From positions 1-22,496 of the forward strand of contig JASMLY010000084.1 of the NCBI GenBank assembly GCA_030748455.1: a stretch of 22,496 nt of DNA. The letters run 5' to 3'. A program made the position numbers and the translations under genes. How positions within the stretch are numbered: position 1 is the first letter of the stretch; the number at the start of each line of letters is the position of its first letter. This stretch comes from Phycisphaerales bacterium. Lineage in GTDB: Bacteria > Planctomycetota > Phycisphaerae > Phycisphaerales > SM1A02. The notes under the pieces are model-generated. The model searched no databases and was not told the DNA's origin. It saw nothing but the letters and a program-made list of their open reading frames with translations. Positions 2,658-10,629 of the stretch are shown here, in pieces.

Positions 2658-3173
2658 ATGGCACGATTTGGAAGTTCACAAGGCGTCTCTCGCCCAACGG
2701 GGCGATGCGCGGCAACTAGCGAAGAAATCCCTCATGCGACCCTAGCAATCGCAGCGCTTTGTGAGCGAGAGGAGGATGAGGGATTCGACCGTTTCGACTT
2801 CAGCATTGAGGCTTGGGAGCGAGGAGAACGACCAGATCGCTTGTTTAGCCATTGGCGGTATATCACCCCTGAGGAGGGTAAAAAGCCCGATATTGTCATT
2901 GATGAGGCCGTTCTCGTTGATCTATTCGAGCGTCTCGAAGGGGATGAACGACCTCAGAGAATCGCGTTTCGGTACATCCTTGCCCTTGTGCTTTTGCGTA
3001 AACGGAAGCTAAAACTCGTTGGTCGAGAAGAAGCTGCAACGGGGGAAATCTGGCTATTACGATGGTCTGGGACGGATGGCGAGCCAGCAAAAGTTCACAA
3101 TCCAGGGATACAAGAAGACGAAATTCATGGACTTTCTGACCAATTGAGCGATTTATTGCAGGGTGACATCTGA
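2658..3173 (+). CDS. Conserved hypothetical protein, resembling a widespread planctomycete family
   Basis: The protein is 171 residues, hydrophilic and probably cytoplasmic, with no signal peptide or membrane segment. It starts with a Gly/Ser-rich tail and an RPTGRCAAT block, followed by a charged segment with FDRFDFSIEAWERGERP. A helix-rich centre (DEAVLVDLFERL, then FRYILALVLLRKRKLKL) leads to a C-terminal amphipathic end (QEDEIHGLSDQLSDLL). From memory this layout (short Cys-containing N-terminus, DFS-EAW, FRYVLALILMRK) matches an uncharacterised protein found across Planctomycetota. I know no function for it. Its stop TGA shares a base with the ATG of the following lipoprotein gene (TGATG, 3171-3175), so the two are probably translated together. 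It is divergent from cdaA across only 35 bases. Confidence 0.85.
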   Translation: MARFGSSQGVSRPTGRCAATSEEIPHATLAIAALCEREEDEGFDRFDFSIEAWERGERPDRLFSHWRYITPEEGKKPDIVIDEAVLVDLFERLEGDERPQRIAFRYILALVLLRKRKLKLVGREEAATGEIWLLRWSGTDGEPAKVHNPGIQEDEIHGLSDQLSDLLQGDI

Positions 3174-3949
3174 TGATCCGAGTTTTTCTGTGTTGTTGCT
3201 TTTTCGCAATTTCTGCCTGTGCCCCAAGGGGAGCGCGTATTGTAAAAGAAGACACCATCCCTCAGGCGGACATCCTACAAGCCCAAATCGAACGGACAAA
3301 GTACTTTGGAGCATTGGTAGGGAGGGGAGTCATTGAGTTCCACTGGGTTGATGAGGATGGTGCACATCGCGCTCAAGGAGATTTTGATTTTTGGAAATCA
3401 GGTAGCGCACTATCCCTCCGAATATCAAAAGGAAGCGAACCGTTGATGTGGATTGGAGGGGATGCGCATAATCACTGGATGTTCGACATGCTCGATGAAG
3501 AATCAAAACTTCTGATCAATCAAGAAGACGTAACACTTTCCGAAATCGAACACACGCTTGTGTTACTCGGATTAACACCATTGCCAAGTGGAGAGACTAC
3601 GACACATCAAGGCATCGTGTCAGTGAAAGCGAACGGGGAAACCTGGCAGGCGACGTATGATCCAATCTCTCATCGTCCTCTACGAATCGAACTGAAAAAT
3701 GACAAACAGCAAACCACTGCAATGCATCGCAGCGGATTGAAGGTCGAACTTGTTGGAAAGAACAGACTTCGCTGGCCTGCCTCAGGGAAGTTAATTGATA
3801 TCGTAAGTACAACATCAGATGCAGAAATAAAAATAGATTTTGCTTGGCTTTCTACTGATACGAGTCAAGAGAGAATGGATCGGGTATTTGACGTTGAGTT
3901 TTTGCAAAAAGCACTGAAGCCACGTAGGGTTGAGGGTTCTTTACGATGA
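3173..3949 (+). CDS. Lipoprotein, possibly LolA/LolB-like fold
   Basis: The protein is 258 residues with a clear lipoprotein signal: M-I-R, a Cys/Phe-rich hydrophobic run, and the lipobox I13-S14-A15-C16, so the mature protein should begin at a lipidated Cys16. The body alternates short beta-strands and charged turns (GVIEFHWVDEDGAHRAQGDFDFW, LSLRISKGSEPLMWIGGDAHNHWMFDM). That layout resembles the LolA/LolB/DUF4292 group of half-barrel lipid or lipoprotein carriers. This is pattern resemblance, not a family match I can prove. The start codon overlaps the stop of the upstream gene, and the stop overlaps the next start (ATGA, 3946-3949), placing it in the middle of a three-gene coupled unit of envelope genes. 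Confidence 0.85.
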   Translation: MIRVFLCCCFFAISACAPRGARIVKEDTIPQADILQAQIERTKYFGALVGRGVIEFHWVDEDGAHRAQGDFDFWKSGSALSLRISKGSEPLMWIGGDAHNHWMFDMLDEESKLLINQEDVTLSEIEHTLVLLGLTPLPSGETTTHQGIVSVKANGETWQATYDPISHRPLRIELKNDKQQTTAMHRSGLKVELVGKNRLRWPASGKLIDIVSTTSDAEIKIDFAWLSTDTSQERMDRVFDVEFLQKALKPRRVEGSLR

Positions 3950-4899
3950 TTGCTTCTGTGCTTGCAAGCCTGCTTGTGGCACAACAGTTGGTCTCCACGA
4001 GTAACAACGTGGGGGTTTGGTTTGTTCATGATCGTCCACCCGGTTCGACTGGTGCACTCTATGAAATTTGCCAACGAATAGATGAATCCAACTACCAAGT
4101 GGTGATTCCTTTGTCTAAAAGACCCATAGCACTCGCTGTGCACGATACAACGTTATGGTTTGTTGGCGGCGAGACACCTCCAGTGTTGTATCGAGCTCGG
4201 TTACATGAAAATCGAGCAACAGGTGATTTGAGAACAGACCCTCGTGGCAGAGCCTCTGCAGTCACAACGATCGATATTGAAGGAAGGGTGCAGGATCTCA
4301 TTATCCTGAATAACGACCCAGTTCTTGTTGTAGAGCAAGATGGATTGCAGTGTTATTCGCTCGATGGAAAACCGATTACCCCGAAGGTACATGGGCACAT
4401 TGGTGCCTGTAGTACCCAAGAAGAGAAGCTGCGCCTCGCCCTTCAAGAGGAGCAGCAGATTACGGTACACACGTACCAAGATCACGCTTGGAACGTTGGT
4501 GACCAGTTTTCCATCGATGGGAAACTCCAAGATTTTTTTACGTTTGATGATTGGCCCGTAGTGATCTCTTCCAAGAATGGTGTAGTTTCCTTCATTGGCG
4601 TACAACAAGGAACGCCTGTGACGTTTGCCACGTTTCCTGAACCTGCTGGGAGGTGGGCTGTTGTAGGTCATGATTCAGGAATTCAAGTTATTGGGGTTGA
4701 GCGAAATGGAACAACGACAGCGATGGAAATTGGTTGGCCATCTGGTCAAGTCTCGAGCCCGAGAGTTCTTACAAAACAATATGGAAGTGCGAGACCGCTT
4801 GAATTGACCCTCATGATCGTAACCTCTGTCATCCTTTTTATAGTTCTGACACTGATCATTCGTGGGAACGCAAAAAAATCGCAAAAAAACGGCAGTTAG
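3946..4899 (+). CDS. Secreted, C-terminally membrane-anchored protein with propeller-like beta repeats
   Basis: The protein is 317 residues. It has a short hydrophobic N-terminus (MIASVLASLLVAQQ), a long beta-rich domain, and one strong C-terminal membrane segment (about 288-307) followed by a basic tail ending KKSQKNGS. The predicted topology is therefore a large extracytoplasmic domain anchored by its C-terminus. The body contains repeated aromatic-turn units (GVWFVHDRPP, TTLWFVGGE, DLIILNNDPVLVVEQDG, VVGHDSGIQVIGVERNG) that look like irregular beta-propeller blades. I do not recognise a named family. It overlaps the preceding lipoprotein gene by 4 bases and is followed, after 173 bases, by the FliF-like gene, so an envelope role is plausible but not shown. 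Confidence 0.82.
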   Translation: MIASVLASLLVAQQLVSTSNNVGVWFVHDRPPGSTGALYEICQRIDESNYQVVIPLSKRPIALAVHDTTLWFVGGETPPVLYRARLHENRATGDLRTDPRGRASAVTTIDIEGRVQDLIILNNDPVLVVEQDGLQCYSLDGKPITPKVHGHIGACSTQEEKLRLALQEEQQITVHTYQDHAWNVGDQFSIDGKLQDFFTFDDWPVVISSKNGVVSFIGVQQGTPVTFATFPEPAGRWAVVGHDSGIQVIGVERNGTTTAMEIGWPSGQVSSPRVLTKQYGSARPLELTLMIVTSVILFIVLTLIIRGNAKKSQKNGS

Positions 4900-5072: not shown

Positions 5073-6179
5073 ATGCGCAAGCAAACGATAAATCGAGCTG
5101 TTGTCATAGGCATTGGGATATGCCTCACTGCCACGATCCTTTGGTTTAGCAAGGGGGGGCAGGTGGAAGAAACTGAACGTACAGATTCTTTTGCACTTGT
5201 TGAAGTAGAACCCGAGGAATCAATTTGGGGCAAGATGGTTCCAAAATCAATAACCGAGCAGAAAAACGATCGCAGGCTTGCCCTGCAAAGTGAATTGGCA
5301 CTGTTGATCGAGGGGCTTCAAGGGGTTTCGACGGCACAGGTTGTCCTCTCTCTACAAGAGAGCAAGGGACTTGGTCATCGATATATTCCAACAACGGCGT
5401 GTGTGACGATTACGCCTGCGTCACACACAGAACTCACAACTGCGGAGATCAAAACCATCACCCGCCTCGTTTCAAGTGGTGTCGCAGGGCTTCATGAAGA
5501 GGATGTAACAATTGTTGATAACAGAGACGGTTTGATTTGTACTGGCCAAGACATTCCTATTTTGCCTAAGCAGATGAACCAAGCAACGATTCGAACAAAT
5601 GTTGAAGAGGCTTTGGGATTGAAAGTTGCGACTGTGAACGTTGAAATGATTTCTCCTCCTGAGGGTGAACTCTTCATCCCATGGTTGGACAATAAAAAAC
5701 CCGTCGTTCGCCTTACTCTTCCGAGATCTTGGGTAACATGGCGAGCAGAAGAGGTTGGGGATGTACAAACAGTCCTTGAAAATATTTCTCACATAGCCCA
5801 AACAGCAGCCGCTGGTTCATTTGTAGAAATTTCAATCATTCACGACAACGTTGCGTACCCAGGTGATGCTGGTACAGTTGAATCATCAAGTAAGCAATGG
5901 GCAATGGTTTGTGGGCTTTTTGCATTACTTCTTTCAGGCATGACTGTAAGAAGGCGAAAGCGAGAAATCGGAGAAAACCAAGAGCCCAATAGGAACGTGC
6001 AGCAAGAGGCACAGTACATTTTGTCTCTACACCATCAAGATGCGAAGGTAGCAATCGATTCACTTCAAGGTTCACGGAGGCGATATGTTCTTGAGGCAAT
6101 CGCTCAATCGGAAGTGGTTCCGATCATTGAGGTGCCAGCGAGGTGTTCCGCCTCGAGTGTCATGGTCGAGTGCGGTTGA
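5073..6179 (+). CDS. Short FliF/YscJ-type membrane ring protein, orphan
   Basis: The protein is 368 residues, with one membrane segment near the N-terminus (about 8-25), an extracytoplasmic domain, a second membrane segment (about 275-291) and a cytoplasmic tail of roughly 75 residues beginning RRRKRE. Residues 66-157 closely follow the ring-building domain of FliF/YscJ: LQSELALLIEGLQGVSTAQVVLSLQES, then LTTAEIKTITRLVSSGVAGLHEEDVTIVDN. This matches the FliF pattern of ELARTI..L..V..ARVHL and I..LVASSVPGL..ENVTVVD. FliF proteins are usually about 550 residues and have a further N-terminal ring domain that is missing here. The cytoplasmic tail has QYILSLHHQDAKVAIDSL followed by RRRYVLEAIAQ, reminiscent of FliG helices. 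The start is supported by GGAG at about 5063-5067. No other flagellar or secretion gene is visible in the window. Confidence 0.85.
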   Translation: MRKQTINRAVVIGIGICLTATILWFSKGGQVEETERTDSFALVEVEPEESIWGKMVPKSITEQKNDRRLALQSELALLIEGLQGVSTAQVVLSLQESKGLGHRYIPTTACVTITPASHTELTTAEIKTITRLVSSGVAGLHEEDVTIVDNRDGLICTGQDIPILPKQMNQATIRTNVEEALGLKVATVNVEMISPPEGELFIPWLDNKKPVVRLTLPRSWVTWRAEEVGDVQTVLENISHIAQTAAAGSFVEISIIHDNVAYPGDAGTVESSSKQWAMVCGLFALLLSGMTVRRRKREIGENQEPNRNVQQEAQYILSLHHQDAKVAIDSLQGSRRRYVLEAIAQSEVVPIIEVPARCSASSVMVECG

Positions 6180-6218: not shown

Positions 6219-7385
6219 TTATTCGGCGAATGTAGAGCGTGTCATCATGAGCTCTAGTGTTTGACAGACAATATCGATTTCTCGTTTTGTTAATGAAGTA
6301 AAAAACGGGAGTGCAAGGGTTCGGGACGAAATGGATTCAGCGACAGGGCAACGGGGTGCGTTGGTCAATTGTTTTGCAACTGGTGGCAGCGTGTGTACAG
6401 GTCTAAAATAATCTGCTGCACCAATTTCATGCCGATGTAGTCCTCGAATAATGTGATCTCGGTCTTCTTCATTAAAACGATCGCTTATGCGAATCACGTA
6501 ACCATCCCAACTCATTCGAATACGGCCGTCAATCGTTGGGCACATCACGTCTGCCAATCCCCCAAGCCTTCGAGTGTACCAATCGGCTACTTGGCTCCTG
6601 CGTTGCATGATTTCTTCCATGCGTTTCATCTGTGTTGCACCTACAGCTGCGTGCACCTCGCTCAACCGAAAACTGTGCCCTAAAGAAACCATTCTCTCAT
6701 CGGTGCGAATTTGAGAGATCGCATCTTGGCCATGGAGCGGGTCATGAAGAAGGCCGTGGTTTCTCTGTGTTTTGCATGCCGAGGCGAGTGTATCATCATC
6801 TGTGACGATTACTCCCCCTTCAAGTGAGGTGAGTTGTGTTGTTGAATGAAATGCAAACACAGCAACTCTACCAAACGAACCAGTAGGTCGATCATGGATC
6901 AAACTGCCAACTGCTTGGCCAGCATCTTCGATCAGGGGGATCTCATGTTTCATTGCGGTTGACGCGATGGATTCGATGCCTGTTGGATTTCCAAAGATGT
7001 GTGTTGCAACAATTCCTTTTGTTTTATCAGTAATTTTACTTGCGATGTCTTCGTGGTCAGCGTTGAGTGATCGAGCGTCACAATCTGCAAAGACTGGTGT
7101 GGCCCCGAGCCGAAGGACACATGCAGTTGTTGATGGAGCATCGAACGTTGGGACGATGACCTCGTCACCTTCGCCAACTCCAAGCGATTCAAGTGCAGTT
7201 TGCATCGCACATGAAGCAGAGCACATCGCAATTGCGTGGGTGCCTGCAGCTTGCGAAGCAACCGCCTTTTCAAAACGAGTCGTCCAAGGACCAAGTGAGT
7301 GCATTTCTCCACGCAACGCGTCGGAAGCGGCAAGAATCTCTCGCTCTGTTATATCTGCACAGCTAAGTGGAATGTTTGTTGACAA
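6219..7385 (-). CDS. DegT/DnrJ/EryC1/StrS aminotransferase-family protein lacking the catalytic lysine
   Basis: The protein is 388 residues, the normal length for sugar aminotransferases of the DegT family, which use PLP to transfer an amino group to keto-sugars for cell-surface glycans. The fold is complete. It has GDEVIVPTFDAPSTT (73-87), the PLP-ring aspartate D154 in IEDAGQAVG, and EGGVIVTDDD (189-198). The C-terminal part includes YFRPVHTLP (about 330), as in family members that bind NDP-sugars. The position that normally holds the Schiff-base lysine (FHATKNL in relatives) reads FHSTTQL, so Thr183 replaces Lys. I checked this in the DNA. A standard transaminase reaction is therefore unlikely. 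It could be a pseudoenzyme, a partner subunit or a differently working homologue. It is convergent with the FliF-like gene (39-base gap), with the helical-repeat gene just upstream. Confidence 0.9.
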   Translation of the reverse strand: MSTNIPLSCADITEREILAASDALRGEMHSLGPWTTRFEKAVASQAAGTHAIAMCSASCAMQTALESLGVGEGDEVIVPTFDAPSTTACVLRLGATPVFADCDARSLNADHEDIASKITDKTKGIVATHIFGNPTGIESIASTAMKHEIPLIEDAGQAVGSLIHDRPTGSFGRVAVFAFHSTTQLTSLEGGVIVTDDDTLASACKTQRNHGLLHDPLHGQDAISQIRTDERMVSLGHSFRLSEVHAAVGATQMKRMEEIMQRRSQVADWYTRRLGGLADVMCPTIDGRIRMSWDGYVIRISDRFNEEDRDHIIRGLHRHEIGAADYFRPVHTLPPVAKQLTNAPRCPVAESISSRTLALPFFTSLTKREIDIVCQTLELMMTRSTFAE

Positions 7386-9033: not shown

Positions 9034-10425
9034 TTACTCGTTTGCGCTTGAGCGAATTGCCCAAGTAAGTTGATCGAGCAGTTCTCGCAAGGTAATCTCC
9101 TCTTCTCCAACTCGAACAGTTCCTTCAGTGTTGGAGGTTCGTTCAAGCCGCTTTTCGATCCTTCGTGACGCTGCGTGAACGGTTGAATGATTTTTTCTGC
9201 CAAGAGCAGAAGCAAGTTCAGGGAAACTCAATGGTGTAAGTGATCTCCCTAGGTATGCAGCAAGACTTCTAGCAAAAACAACACGTGTCGATCTTGTGTT
9301 TCCAAGAAAGTCCTCTACAGAAACCCCAAGACGTTTGCAAGTAATTGCAACCACATCTTTCATTCGGATCGGATGAGATGTGGGTGGTGTTGCACGGAGT
9401 ACACGCTCAACATCATCTATACCAACAATGTTTTTGTGTTCCGTAGCCAAAAATTGAACAGCAGCAGTGATTCTTGTAACTGCGCCTTCGACTTCTCTGA
9501 CTGACCCGACCGCTTGGCTAGAGAGTCTTTCAATTGCAGCAGGGGTCATTGAAATTCCGCGATTGCTCAACAAACGTTCGATAATTGTGTGTCGTGTATC
9601 TCGGTCAGGCCGGCCAATTTCAACAACCATCCCAGCAACAAAGCGGTTCGCTAAAGCACGGTTGAGTCGCCTGATCCGCTGTGGATCTTCGTCAGAAGCA
9701 AGTGCGAGTCGCGCCCCGCGTAAGCCAGCAGAATCAAGCGTATGGAGTAGTTCATCTTGCGTCTTGGTTTTACTCGCAACGAAATGAATGTCGTCTATGG
9801 CGAGTAAATCAAGTTTGCGATATCGATTCCTGAATCGTTGGAAATCTCCAGCCCTTGAACTCGCGATAAACTCGTTTGTAAACTGCTCAGCAGTTACAAA
9901 CCGGACTCTCCCTGGTGCGGTTTTTGCAGCTTCTTTGCAGATTGCTTGAAGGAGGTGTGTTTTTCCTACTCCACACGCCCCGTGCACAAACAGAGGCGAA
10001 ATGGTAGTTCCATCTTGGAGCAGTTGTTTCGCCGCAGACCAAGCGAGCCTATTGCATGATCCGACCACAAACTCATCAAAACTTCGTAATCTTCGAGATG
10101 ATTTTTTTCTCGCTGCAGGTTTTGGATGGTGGTGGCTAGGCTCGCATTGTGTTGGGGGTTGTTGCGTCGCTGTTTGTATCGAAACACTTGTAGTTCGACC
10201 AAACGCCTCGGTAGCGGCATCTTCAATGACAGCAGCAAATCTCTGTTCGATCCATCTTGCTGCAAAGGGGGTTGCTGCCAAAATTTCAACGCCCTGTTCA
10301 GTGCAATTCATTTGAGTTTCAGAAAACCACATTCGGTATGGCCGTTTCCCAAGAGATTTCGTTAATTGATCTCGAAGTAGTTGTTCAGTTTCTGAAAAAG
10401 ATCGGGACATTGAAGGTGGAGGCAT
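9034..10425 (-). CDS. dnaA: Chromosomal replication initiator protein DnaA
   Basis: DnaA binds 9-base boxes at the origin, melts it and loads helicase. From the chosen start the protein has 463 residues, a normal length. The frame is open to ATG 10569, but the added 48 residues (rich in Leu, Ser and Pro) have no counterpart in the family. Domain I/II covers about 1-110. The AAA+ ATPase has Walker A GACGVGKTH (149-157) and Walker B LLAIDDIHF. The C-terminal helix-turn-helix domain carries the DnaA signature block LGRKNHSTV. The gene is not beside dnaN, recF or gyrB. Upstream (10570-10750) are a DnaA-box-like site and two candidate promoters, so autoregulation is plausible. Neither candidate start has a good ribosome binding site, so the start is moderately certain. 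Confidence 0.95.
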   Translation of the reverse strand: MPPPSMSRSFSETEQLLRDQLTKSLGKRPYRMWFSETQMNCTEQGVEILAATPFAARWIEQRFAAVIEDAATEAFGRTTSVSIQTATQQPPTQCEPSHHHPKPAARKKSSRRLRSFDEFVVGSCNRLAWSAAKQLLQDGTTISPLFVHGACGVGKTHLLQAICKEAAKTAPGRVRFVTAEQFTNEFIASSRAGDFQRFRNRYRKLDLLAIDDIHFVASKTKTQDELLHTLDSAGLRGARLALASDEDPQRIRRLNRALANRFVAGMVVEIGRPDRDTRHTIIERLLSNRGISMTPAAIERLSSQAVGSVREVEGAVTRITAAVQFLATEHKNIVGIDDVERVLRATPPTSHPIRMKDVVAITCKRLGVSVEDFLGNTRSTRVVFARSLAAYLGRSLTPLSFPELASALGRKNHSTVHAASRRIEKRLERTSNTEGTVRVGEEEITLRELLDQLTWAIRSSANE

Positions 10426-10629
10426 CGCGCAGTCGCAAAGCAATAGGAAACTTGGCGACGAGAGTACAAGTGAAAAAAGTTGTAATTGGGTCCTTCCGAC
10501 ATCCGCCCCTCCGATGGTTTTTGGATTGCCGTCATACCGACAAACTTGTGACCATCTTGATCGGTTCACTCATCCTTGAGTGATATGCGAAGCGTACAAC
10601 AAATGAAACTTCTTGCAAGAGTACTTGCT

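Follow-up and report, generated by a model that had tools for sequence, protein, structure and literature searches.

Flagellar remains that are reused are already known in kind, from Chlamydia, from Lysobacter and from a survey, and the loss of flagella is told for other groups in the available parts of PMC6461901 and PMC10746217. The nearest precedent for the locus described here is the short chlamydial FliF with FlhA. In the part of PMC2830194 open to us, chlamydial FliF is a protein of ~341 aa with two membrane helices, whose residues 271–341 are needed for the FlhA cytoplasmic domain, and Chlamydia pneumoniae keeps a remnant (FliF, FlhA and FliI) that resembles ours in its short two-helix FliF, its FlhA and the small number of other flagellar orthologs. 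It differs in that C. pneumoniae keeps FliI and has an injectisome alongside, whereas FliI was undetected here; the planctomycete line, unlike Chlamydia, has kept FlhF and in one sublineage fused it to FlhA, and relatives still show how it descended from a full operon. Lysobacter enzymogenes likewise retains and reuses flagellar export genes without flagella, but it keeps FliI, and the accessible part of that report mentions neither FliF nor FlhF (PMC7277350). The hat-shaped complex is an inner-membrane structure outside flagella with cytoplasmic densities taken for FlhA; however, FliF was shown not to form its periplasmic part, and it occurs in species with flagellar export genes (PMC9380563, accessible part). 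The same text tells of a secretin-less type III secretion system of Myxococcales in which protein transfer is thought to span the inner membrane only, although that system belongs to the injectisome lineage. In the literature on planctomycete FliF/FlhA type III systems, fused FlhA-FlhF and PVC flagellar genes, as far as its text was accessible, no description of such a system was found, so three things are new as far as searched: the short FliF of planctomycetes, the stepwise way in which it arose at a single site, and the fusion of FlhA with FlhF. The first-pass annotation had suspected an undescribed planctomycete system, which agrees with this literature and with relatives that have no detectable flagellum.

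The window, that is, the whole stretch of 22,496 nucleotides analysed here (contig JASMLY010000084.1 of a Phycisphaerales bacterium), carries at 5073..6179 (+ strand) a gene for a short FliF-type ring protein of 368 aa, assigned by sequence, fold and synteny orthology. The Pfam model YscJ_FliF matched residues 61–152 of this protein with 64.2 bits, and the match covered positions 83–174 of 179, the second half of the model only. The Pfam-recognised part is the RBM2 domain (residues 60–149; 5250..5519, +), whose presence was also supported by structure alignment and by hhalign, with an E value of 1.1e-18 for RBM2 of the short FliF against canonical FliF. RBM1 is absent from the protein: the Pfam match starts at profile position 83, and the gap between the first membrane helix and RBM2 measures 32 residues. 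Both sequence and model place a membrane helix on either side of the ring domains. The first (residues 3–27; 5079..5153, +) is given by the AlphaFold2 model and the hydrophobic sequence, and the second (residues 270–290; 5880..5942, +) by the model and a conserved sequence block. The claim of the first-pass annotation that a FliF-type ring domain lies between two membrane segments is thus confirmed by Pfam, hhalign, Foldseek and the model. Its description of a simplified FliF without the first ring domain and ~180 residues shorter than usual (11 canonical FliF proteins from this order measure 529–587 aa) is borne out by the start of the Pfam match and by the model.

Two AlphaFold2 models of the window protein, built from 13 and 18 sequences, had pLDDT values of 64.0 and 68.7 and pTM values of 0.29 and 0.31. 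Both models concur in the first membrane helix, in RBM folds at residues 60–149 and 170–256, in the second membrane helix at ~270–290 and in three tail helices. With the middling confidence of these models, the second fold was assigned as an RBM3-like domain (residues 170–256; 5580..5840, +) without a beta-collar insertion, since only 15 residues lie between the strands 187–193 and 209–217. At the same middling confidence, a conserved three-helix cytoplasmic tail, FliG-like in look, was assigned to residues 309–345 (5997..6107, +); the second model gives its helices a pLDDT of around 85. The top PDB matches of the model in Foldseek were FliF structures. With VIA-align, residues 60–158 superposed on Salmonella RBM2 (6sd2_A) at 1.2 Å, and residues 60–259 aligned to FliF 125–438 (7bk0_B), which comprises RBM2 plus RBM3. 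Sequence similarity to the FliF of genome G153 reached residue 210, into RBM3 (E 8.3e-14), and profile comparison found no sequence match of the RBM3-like domain to canonical RBM3.

When profiles were ranked, as had been proposed at first pass, FliF stood above SctJ/YscJ and SpoIIIAG for the window protein, both in NCBIfam and in structure alignment. The SctJ/YscJ equivalog model TIGR02544 gave 29.8 bits against a cut-off of 161.95 and matched over profile positions 99–184 only. PRK05934, which we take to be the model of the chlamydial short FliF (a guess from its length of 341), gave 15.5 bits against 297, with residues 74–153 aligned to 75–151 of 341. With the tail profile, no canonical FliF C-terminus, where the FliG-binding motif lies, scored above 1.3 bits. 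The window protein resembles the flagellar MS-ring FliF in RBM2, two membrane helices, an RBM3-like fold and, by descent, its operon site, but it has no RBM1, no collar and no recognisable canonical C-terminus, and no flagellum was detected in its relatives. RBM2 and the collarless RBM3 would form a small inner-membrane ring, which we consider rather probable as part of the explanation developed below.

The fliF of the window has no flagellar neighbour. Three genes without a known family precede it, here and in the six relatives that carry a short fliF. The head of this run encodes a 171-aa protein (2658..3173, +; no Pfam match) that is strongly conserved, 86–91% identical in the loci L001–L003, and by eye also stands in the other three loci. 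It is followed by a 258-aa putative lipoprotein (3173..3949, +; no Pfam match), so called by eye from its N-terminus, which overlaps both neighbours and is kept in 6/6 relatives. Directly before fliF lies a gene for a 317-aa protein with a C-terminal hydrophobic stretch (3946..4899, +; no Pfam match), kept before the short fliF in 6/6 relatives. By eye, this last protein has a signal-like N-terminus and repeated W-containing motifs. The proteins encoded at 3173–4899 were found by tblastn in none of 18 loci set beside them in the synteny comparison. On the other side, the lone short fliF of the window, like that of each of the six relatives, is followed by a DegT-type aminotransferase gene (6219..7385, −), a gene whose product weakly matches HEAT and dnaA (9034..10569, −), except that in G095 the contig ends before dnaA is seen.

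The aminotransferase and dnaA genes served as synteny markers for the ancestral site of a flagellar operon. In the flagellated relative G137, the site reads flgC-fliF-fliG-fliH-fliI...flgE, then aminotransferase, dnaA and acetyltransferase, and in G086, the second flagellated relative, the same aminotransferase follows flgE. In G153, nothing but fliF (487 aa) and fliG (284 aa) lies between a response-regulator gene (by eye) and the aminotransferase. G154 has a 626-aa FliF::FliG_C fusion before the aminotransferase (L139:4107-5987), and G175 (L140) has the same fusion, interrupted by an in-frame TAG. Through this conserved gene neighbourhood the window gene is an ortholog of flagellar FliF and is a FliF by descent: its site is the one that holds the G137 operon, the G153 pair and the G154 fusion. 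One site thus shows living steps from a full operon over fliF-fliG and a FliF::FliG fusion to a lone short FliF. That this locus of small-genome Phycisphaerales is a dismantled flagellar operon belongs to the same explanation, which we hold to be the better supported one. The earlier reading of the gene as an orphan without flagellar neighbours is right about the neighbours at the locus but not about the orphan, since relatives carry export genes on other contigs and the locus is that of a gutted operon.

The origin of the tail was considered with FliG in mind. By eye, its pattern ILSLPHxDARxAIDALxGxRRxxVLEAIxES resembles FliG helices near LPHHKAAEILGGLPxQKQxEVxKRIANME. The hhalign probability was 0.9% for the whole short-FliF profile against 12 FliG sequences and 5.0% for the tail core against FliG, or 5.6% when the FliG of G153 was added. 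When 798 ORFs were ranked by the tail profile, FliG or partial FliG made up 12 of the first 16 after 7 self matches; these hits, four of them partial, belong to a single family, with 0.009 as the lowest whole-sequence E value and 7.9 bits as the highest single-stretch score seen. Five of the 12 FliG sequences reached the 99th percentile of 2400 shuffled FliG with the tail profile, the top one and one more aligning near the start (10–27) and three at 147–177. The tail score of the G153 FliG was equalled or exceeded by 99 of 2000 shuffles. FliG was found neither in a Pfam search of seven tails nor in a PDB profile search, and the second stretch of profile A1 on a PDB FliF-FliG fusion (−2.3 bits), which by position should end in FliG, carries no weight alone. 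A FliG-derived tail is conceivable, given that G154 and G175 carry a natural FliF::FliG_C fusion at this site; that fusion involves FliG_C, not the tail-like part of FliG. The FliG-like tail is suggestive only, and from these comparisons a FliG origin seems to us about evenly balanced between yes and no.

A search of 5.8 billion proteins gave 13 clusters with one sequence and 18, query included, with a seven-row profile, all of 343–409 aa; no relative of short FliF was found in viral contigs. The loci L001–L003, for which two peptide patterns were used, come from Phycisphaerales/Planctomycetota metagenome assemblies. The short-FliF profile matched 91 of the 151 genomes of the order, near full length in six of them (G001, G002, G003, G080, G095 and G146; E 1.2e-65 or better; frames of 375–406 aa), whose genomes measure 1.8–2.1 Mb. 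The other 85 matches lie in frames of mostly 550–640 aa; three are shorter than 500 aa (398, 404 and 483 aa), and those of 398 and 483 aa are near contig ends. At family level, 101 genomes were searched, among them five of these six; this added no full-length match and gave two other frames below 500 aa, of 491 aa in G153 and 402 aa in G198.

The frames of short fliF stay open down to 29–36% identity, and the tail is conserved among relatives. Between L001, L002 and L003 the dN/dS of fliF was 0.136, 0.141 and 0.091 at dS of 0.8–1.7 (Nei-Gojobori); pairs with the window were left out as saturated (dS 2.3, 3.4 and infinite). The gene before fliF gave 0.17–0.18 in the same three pairs, and values elsewhere were 0.07–0.08 for flhA, 0.07–0.08 for dnaA and 0.13 for flhB (one pair). 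The remnant is under purifying selection.

Gene content was read in the six relatives, and the other flagellar genes of the window's genome are judged from relatives whose FliF is 59–62% identical to that of the window. PF01514 gave one copy each in G001–G003. FlhA was found in 6/6 relatives, though in G146 only over model positions 225–656, and FliP in 5/6, with none detected in G146, so the pair that denotes an export apparatus is there in the relatives (6/6 and 5/6). FliI (PF18269) was found in 0/6, against 121/151 genomes in the order; four of the six stand explicitly among the genomes lacking it, and G002 and G146 are not among the matches listed. The rod/hook family PF06429 was found in 0/6, and the control genome G100 gave four matches, three of them over the cut-off. 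FliG_C was absent from four relatives searched (G001, G002, G003 and G080), and G095 and G146 were not among its 64 matches in the 101 family genomes; FliM/N and flagellin were each found in 0/3 relatives searched. Single absences are weak, three of the relatives being metagenome assemblies, though they are mutually consistent, and short profiles could miss rod or switch proteins that have diverged strongly. An expectation that relatives would carry this gene without other flagellar genes holds for rod/hook and FliI, but fails for FlhA and FliP. A complete flagellar set in which the gene simply serves as FliF was not found in the relatives searched for rod/hook, FliI, FliM/N and flagellin, and by this gene content a flagellum with rod, switch and filament would not be the setting of FliF.

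The export genes of the relatives sit on contigs other than that of the short fliF. In G001 and G003 they form one row, fliO-fliP-fliQ-fliR-flhB-flhA-flhF-flhG-fliA; G095 and G080 have the same row without flhG, and G002 has flhB to fliA on a short contig, with fliP on another. FlhG is present in three relatives. In G002, FlhA (710 bits), FlhB and FlhF were best matched by flagellar NCBIfam models, all below the cut-offs, and the FliA/WhiG sigma factor reached 227.5 bits, above its cut-off of 189.6. The same sigma gene was found in G003, G080, G095 and G146 (by BLAST) and in G001 (by reading), near flhF. The autocleavage motif of FlhB is degenerate in these relatives: it reads NPTT in G002 and G003, NATT in G001, NAMT in G095 and NAST in G080 (L116, L008, L015, L109 and L110), and NPTH in G137, the bearer of the flagellar operon; at this site FlhB is cleaved. 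In the FlhA tree, the eight rows that are short or fused group together as a single clade (100/100), whose placement among the others is poorly supported (55/69).

FlhF is shortened in these relatives. The canonical N-terminal motif AL..VK.DLG.DAVIL was present in 18/18 canonical FlhF of the order and in 0/6 among G001, G002, G003, G095, G080 and the G146 fusion; the pattern also misses the FlhF of G137, although the FlhF model does match the N-terminus of that protein. The TIGR03499 match starts at position 92 of 286 in G002, at 51 in G080 and at 3 in G137, and in the fusion at 28, yet there it extends into the end of FlhA. In the accessible part of PMC11236974, Shewanella FlhF binds FliG through its N-terminus, FliG in turn binds FliF, and FlhF alone failed to bind the cytoplasmic part of FliF. 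By analogy, we take the lost motif for this FliG-binding domain.

In G146, the export cluster (L108:7904-10402) is a single 832-aa frame that joins FlhA 263–688 to FlhF. Scoring of 7999 candidates gave 19 further FlhA-FlhF fusions from several sources, with 762–827 aa, FHIPEP plus SRP54 and 44–96% identity. In 20/20 fusions (P0014 and the 19), the FlhA match starts at residue 228–270 of G003 FlhA and the FlhF match at residue 1–20 of G003 FlhF. Because all 20 proteins, from several sources, carry the same join, an assembly error is unlikely as its source. A FliO-like start reached an E value of 1e-5 in only 2/20 (P0020 and P0027), and seven fusion starts compared by reading look alike. The FliF of G146 and P0105 have the same sequence, and the longest contig with a member of the P0105 cluster measures 1.65 Mb. 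The fusion sublineage has thus lost the first 227–269 residues of FlhA, yet it keeps the short FliF; in this last step of the series the FlhA start (and, in G146, the sole genome of this lineage searched for it, FliP) is lost, while FliF, the FlhA end and FlhF stay. The first third of FlhA makes up most of its membrane part. Since FliP is undetected in G146 and this first third is gone, the fusion sublineage should not export protein, and on sequence grounds export has probably been lost there while FliF persists.

Fused proteins often work together, from which a FliF-FlhA-FlhF complex is predicted. We favour, as rather probable, a selected remnant of a dismantled flagellum: an inner-membrane ring that holds FlhA and FlhF. 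Retention of the ring together with a protein of the export gate and a GTPase for positioning, two of them even fused, suggests a flagellar piece kept for another job. The flagellum of small-genome Phycisphaerales would have been dismantled until fliF alone was left at the ancestral site, and RBM1 and the collar would have been discarded once no rod remained. The cytoplasmic tail of the short FliF ring may hold the FlhA cytoplasmic ring, as in chlamydial FliF, and FlhF, having lost its own FliG handle along with FliG, may be recruited through FlhA, in the derived lineage by fusion; the idea that FliF, FlhA and FlhF touch comes from other species. In genomes that still have FliPQR and FlhB, the ring may house an export gate powered by protons and spanning only the inner membrane; in those that lost them, FliF-FlhA-FlhF would stay as a GTPase-controlled scaffold. 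The remnant may be under the control of the FliA-type sigma factor. In other bacteria FlhF marks the pole, and by analogy this is the best lead to the ring's role in the cell. A bolder and more tentative proposal, possible in our view, is an inner-membrane organelle that neither secretes nor rotates: a small FliF ring with a cytoplasmic FlhA domain fused to FlhF, under a FliA-type sigma factor, in which the FlhA domain would replace the lost N-terminal domain of FlhF and set the GTPase directly on the ring, marking or organising a site (pole, division or envelope growth).

Alternatively, the whole could serve export across just the inner membrane, with FliF around a FliPQR-FlhB-FlhA gate driven by proton motive force, without ATPase or rod, and releasing proteins into the periplasm or building a tube. 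FliP with FlhA in 5/6 relatives, the whole fliP-Q-R-flhB-flhA row in four and purifying selection on flhA (0.07–0.08) and flhB (0.13, one pair) fit such a machine. Non-flagellated Lysobacter enzymogenes also exports foreign flagellin through genes of this kind (PMC7277350, accessible part), and a 'core complex' is said to serve nanotubes, as told in the available text of PMC9380563. However, the NPTH site of FlhB is altered to NPTT, NATT, NAMT or NAST, and a sublineage without FlhA residues 1 to 227–269 and, in G146, without FliP keeps its short FliF, so a function shared by all of them should be something other than export; as a general account we find it rather unlikely. The clear series of gene losses at the locus and the in-frame TAG in the FliF::FliG fusion of G175 would also be expected of functionless remains of a disappearing flagellum, and such remnants are discussed in PMC12199754. 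Against this disfavoured and improbable reading stand the low dN/dS, the conserved tail, frames open to 29–36% identity, 20 proteins that preserve the fusion at identities as low as 44% and retention in small genomes.

An ordinary flagellum, with its remaining parts either too diverged to recognise or encoded on contigs that are missing, would account for the FliA-type sigma factor, for the retained FlhF and for FlhG in three relatives, and assemblies may be incomplete. It is nevertheless very improbable: rod/hook and FliI were each found in 0/6 where relatives of the same order match strongly, FliF has no collar, FlhF has no N-terminal domain and the operon site is emptied. Scarcely credible is an injectisome-type secretion system with an SctJ-like ring. 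RBM2 matches SctJ structures as well, TIGR02544 weakly matches the window protein and is the sole NCBIfam match of the G146 FliF (26.2 bits, below the cut-off), with the FliF model absent there; but for the window protein FliF models and structures outscore SctJ, the FlhA, FlhB and FlhF of G002 are best with flagellar models, though below cut-offs, and the site is that of the flagellar operon. If the ring of the favoured remnant works, flagellar core parts would be useful without motion or secretion. These bacteria belong to the PVC grouping, and together with the chlamydial case a working ring would mean that PVC bacteria retained the pairing of a short FliF and FlhA either on two occasions or from an early date.

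Apart from the short-FliF genomes, a second reduced line was observed in G011 (L111), G026 (L112) and G122 (L113), which carry FlhA, FliP and FlhF-like genes; G122 also has FliR and a 234-aa frame at the FlhB position, assigned by position. FliI was not found in these three genomes, and none of them is among the short-FliF profile matches. G033, G084, G108 and G126 have more than one FlhA match per genome, which points to a possible second type III system; one of the three FlhA matches of G084 is a split piece.
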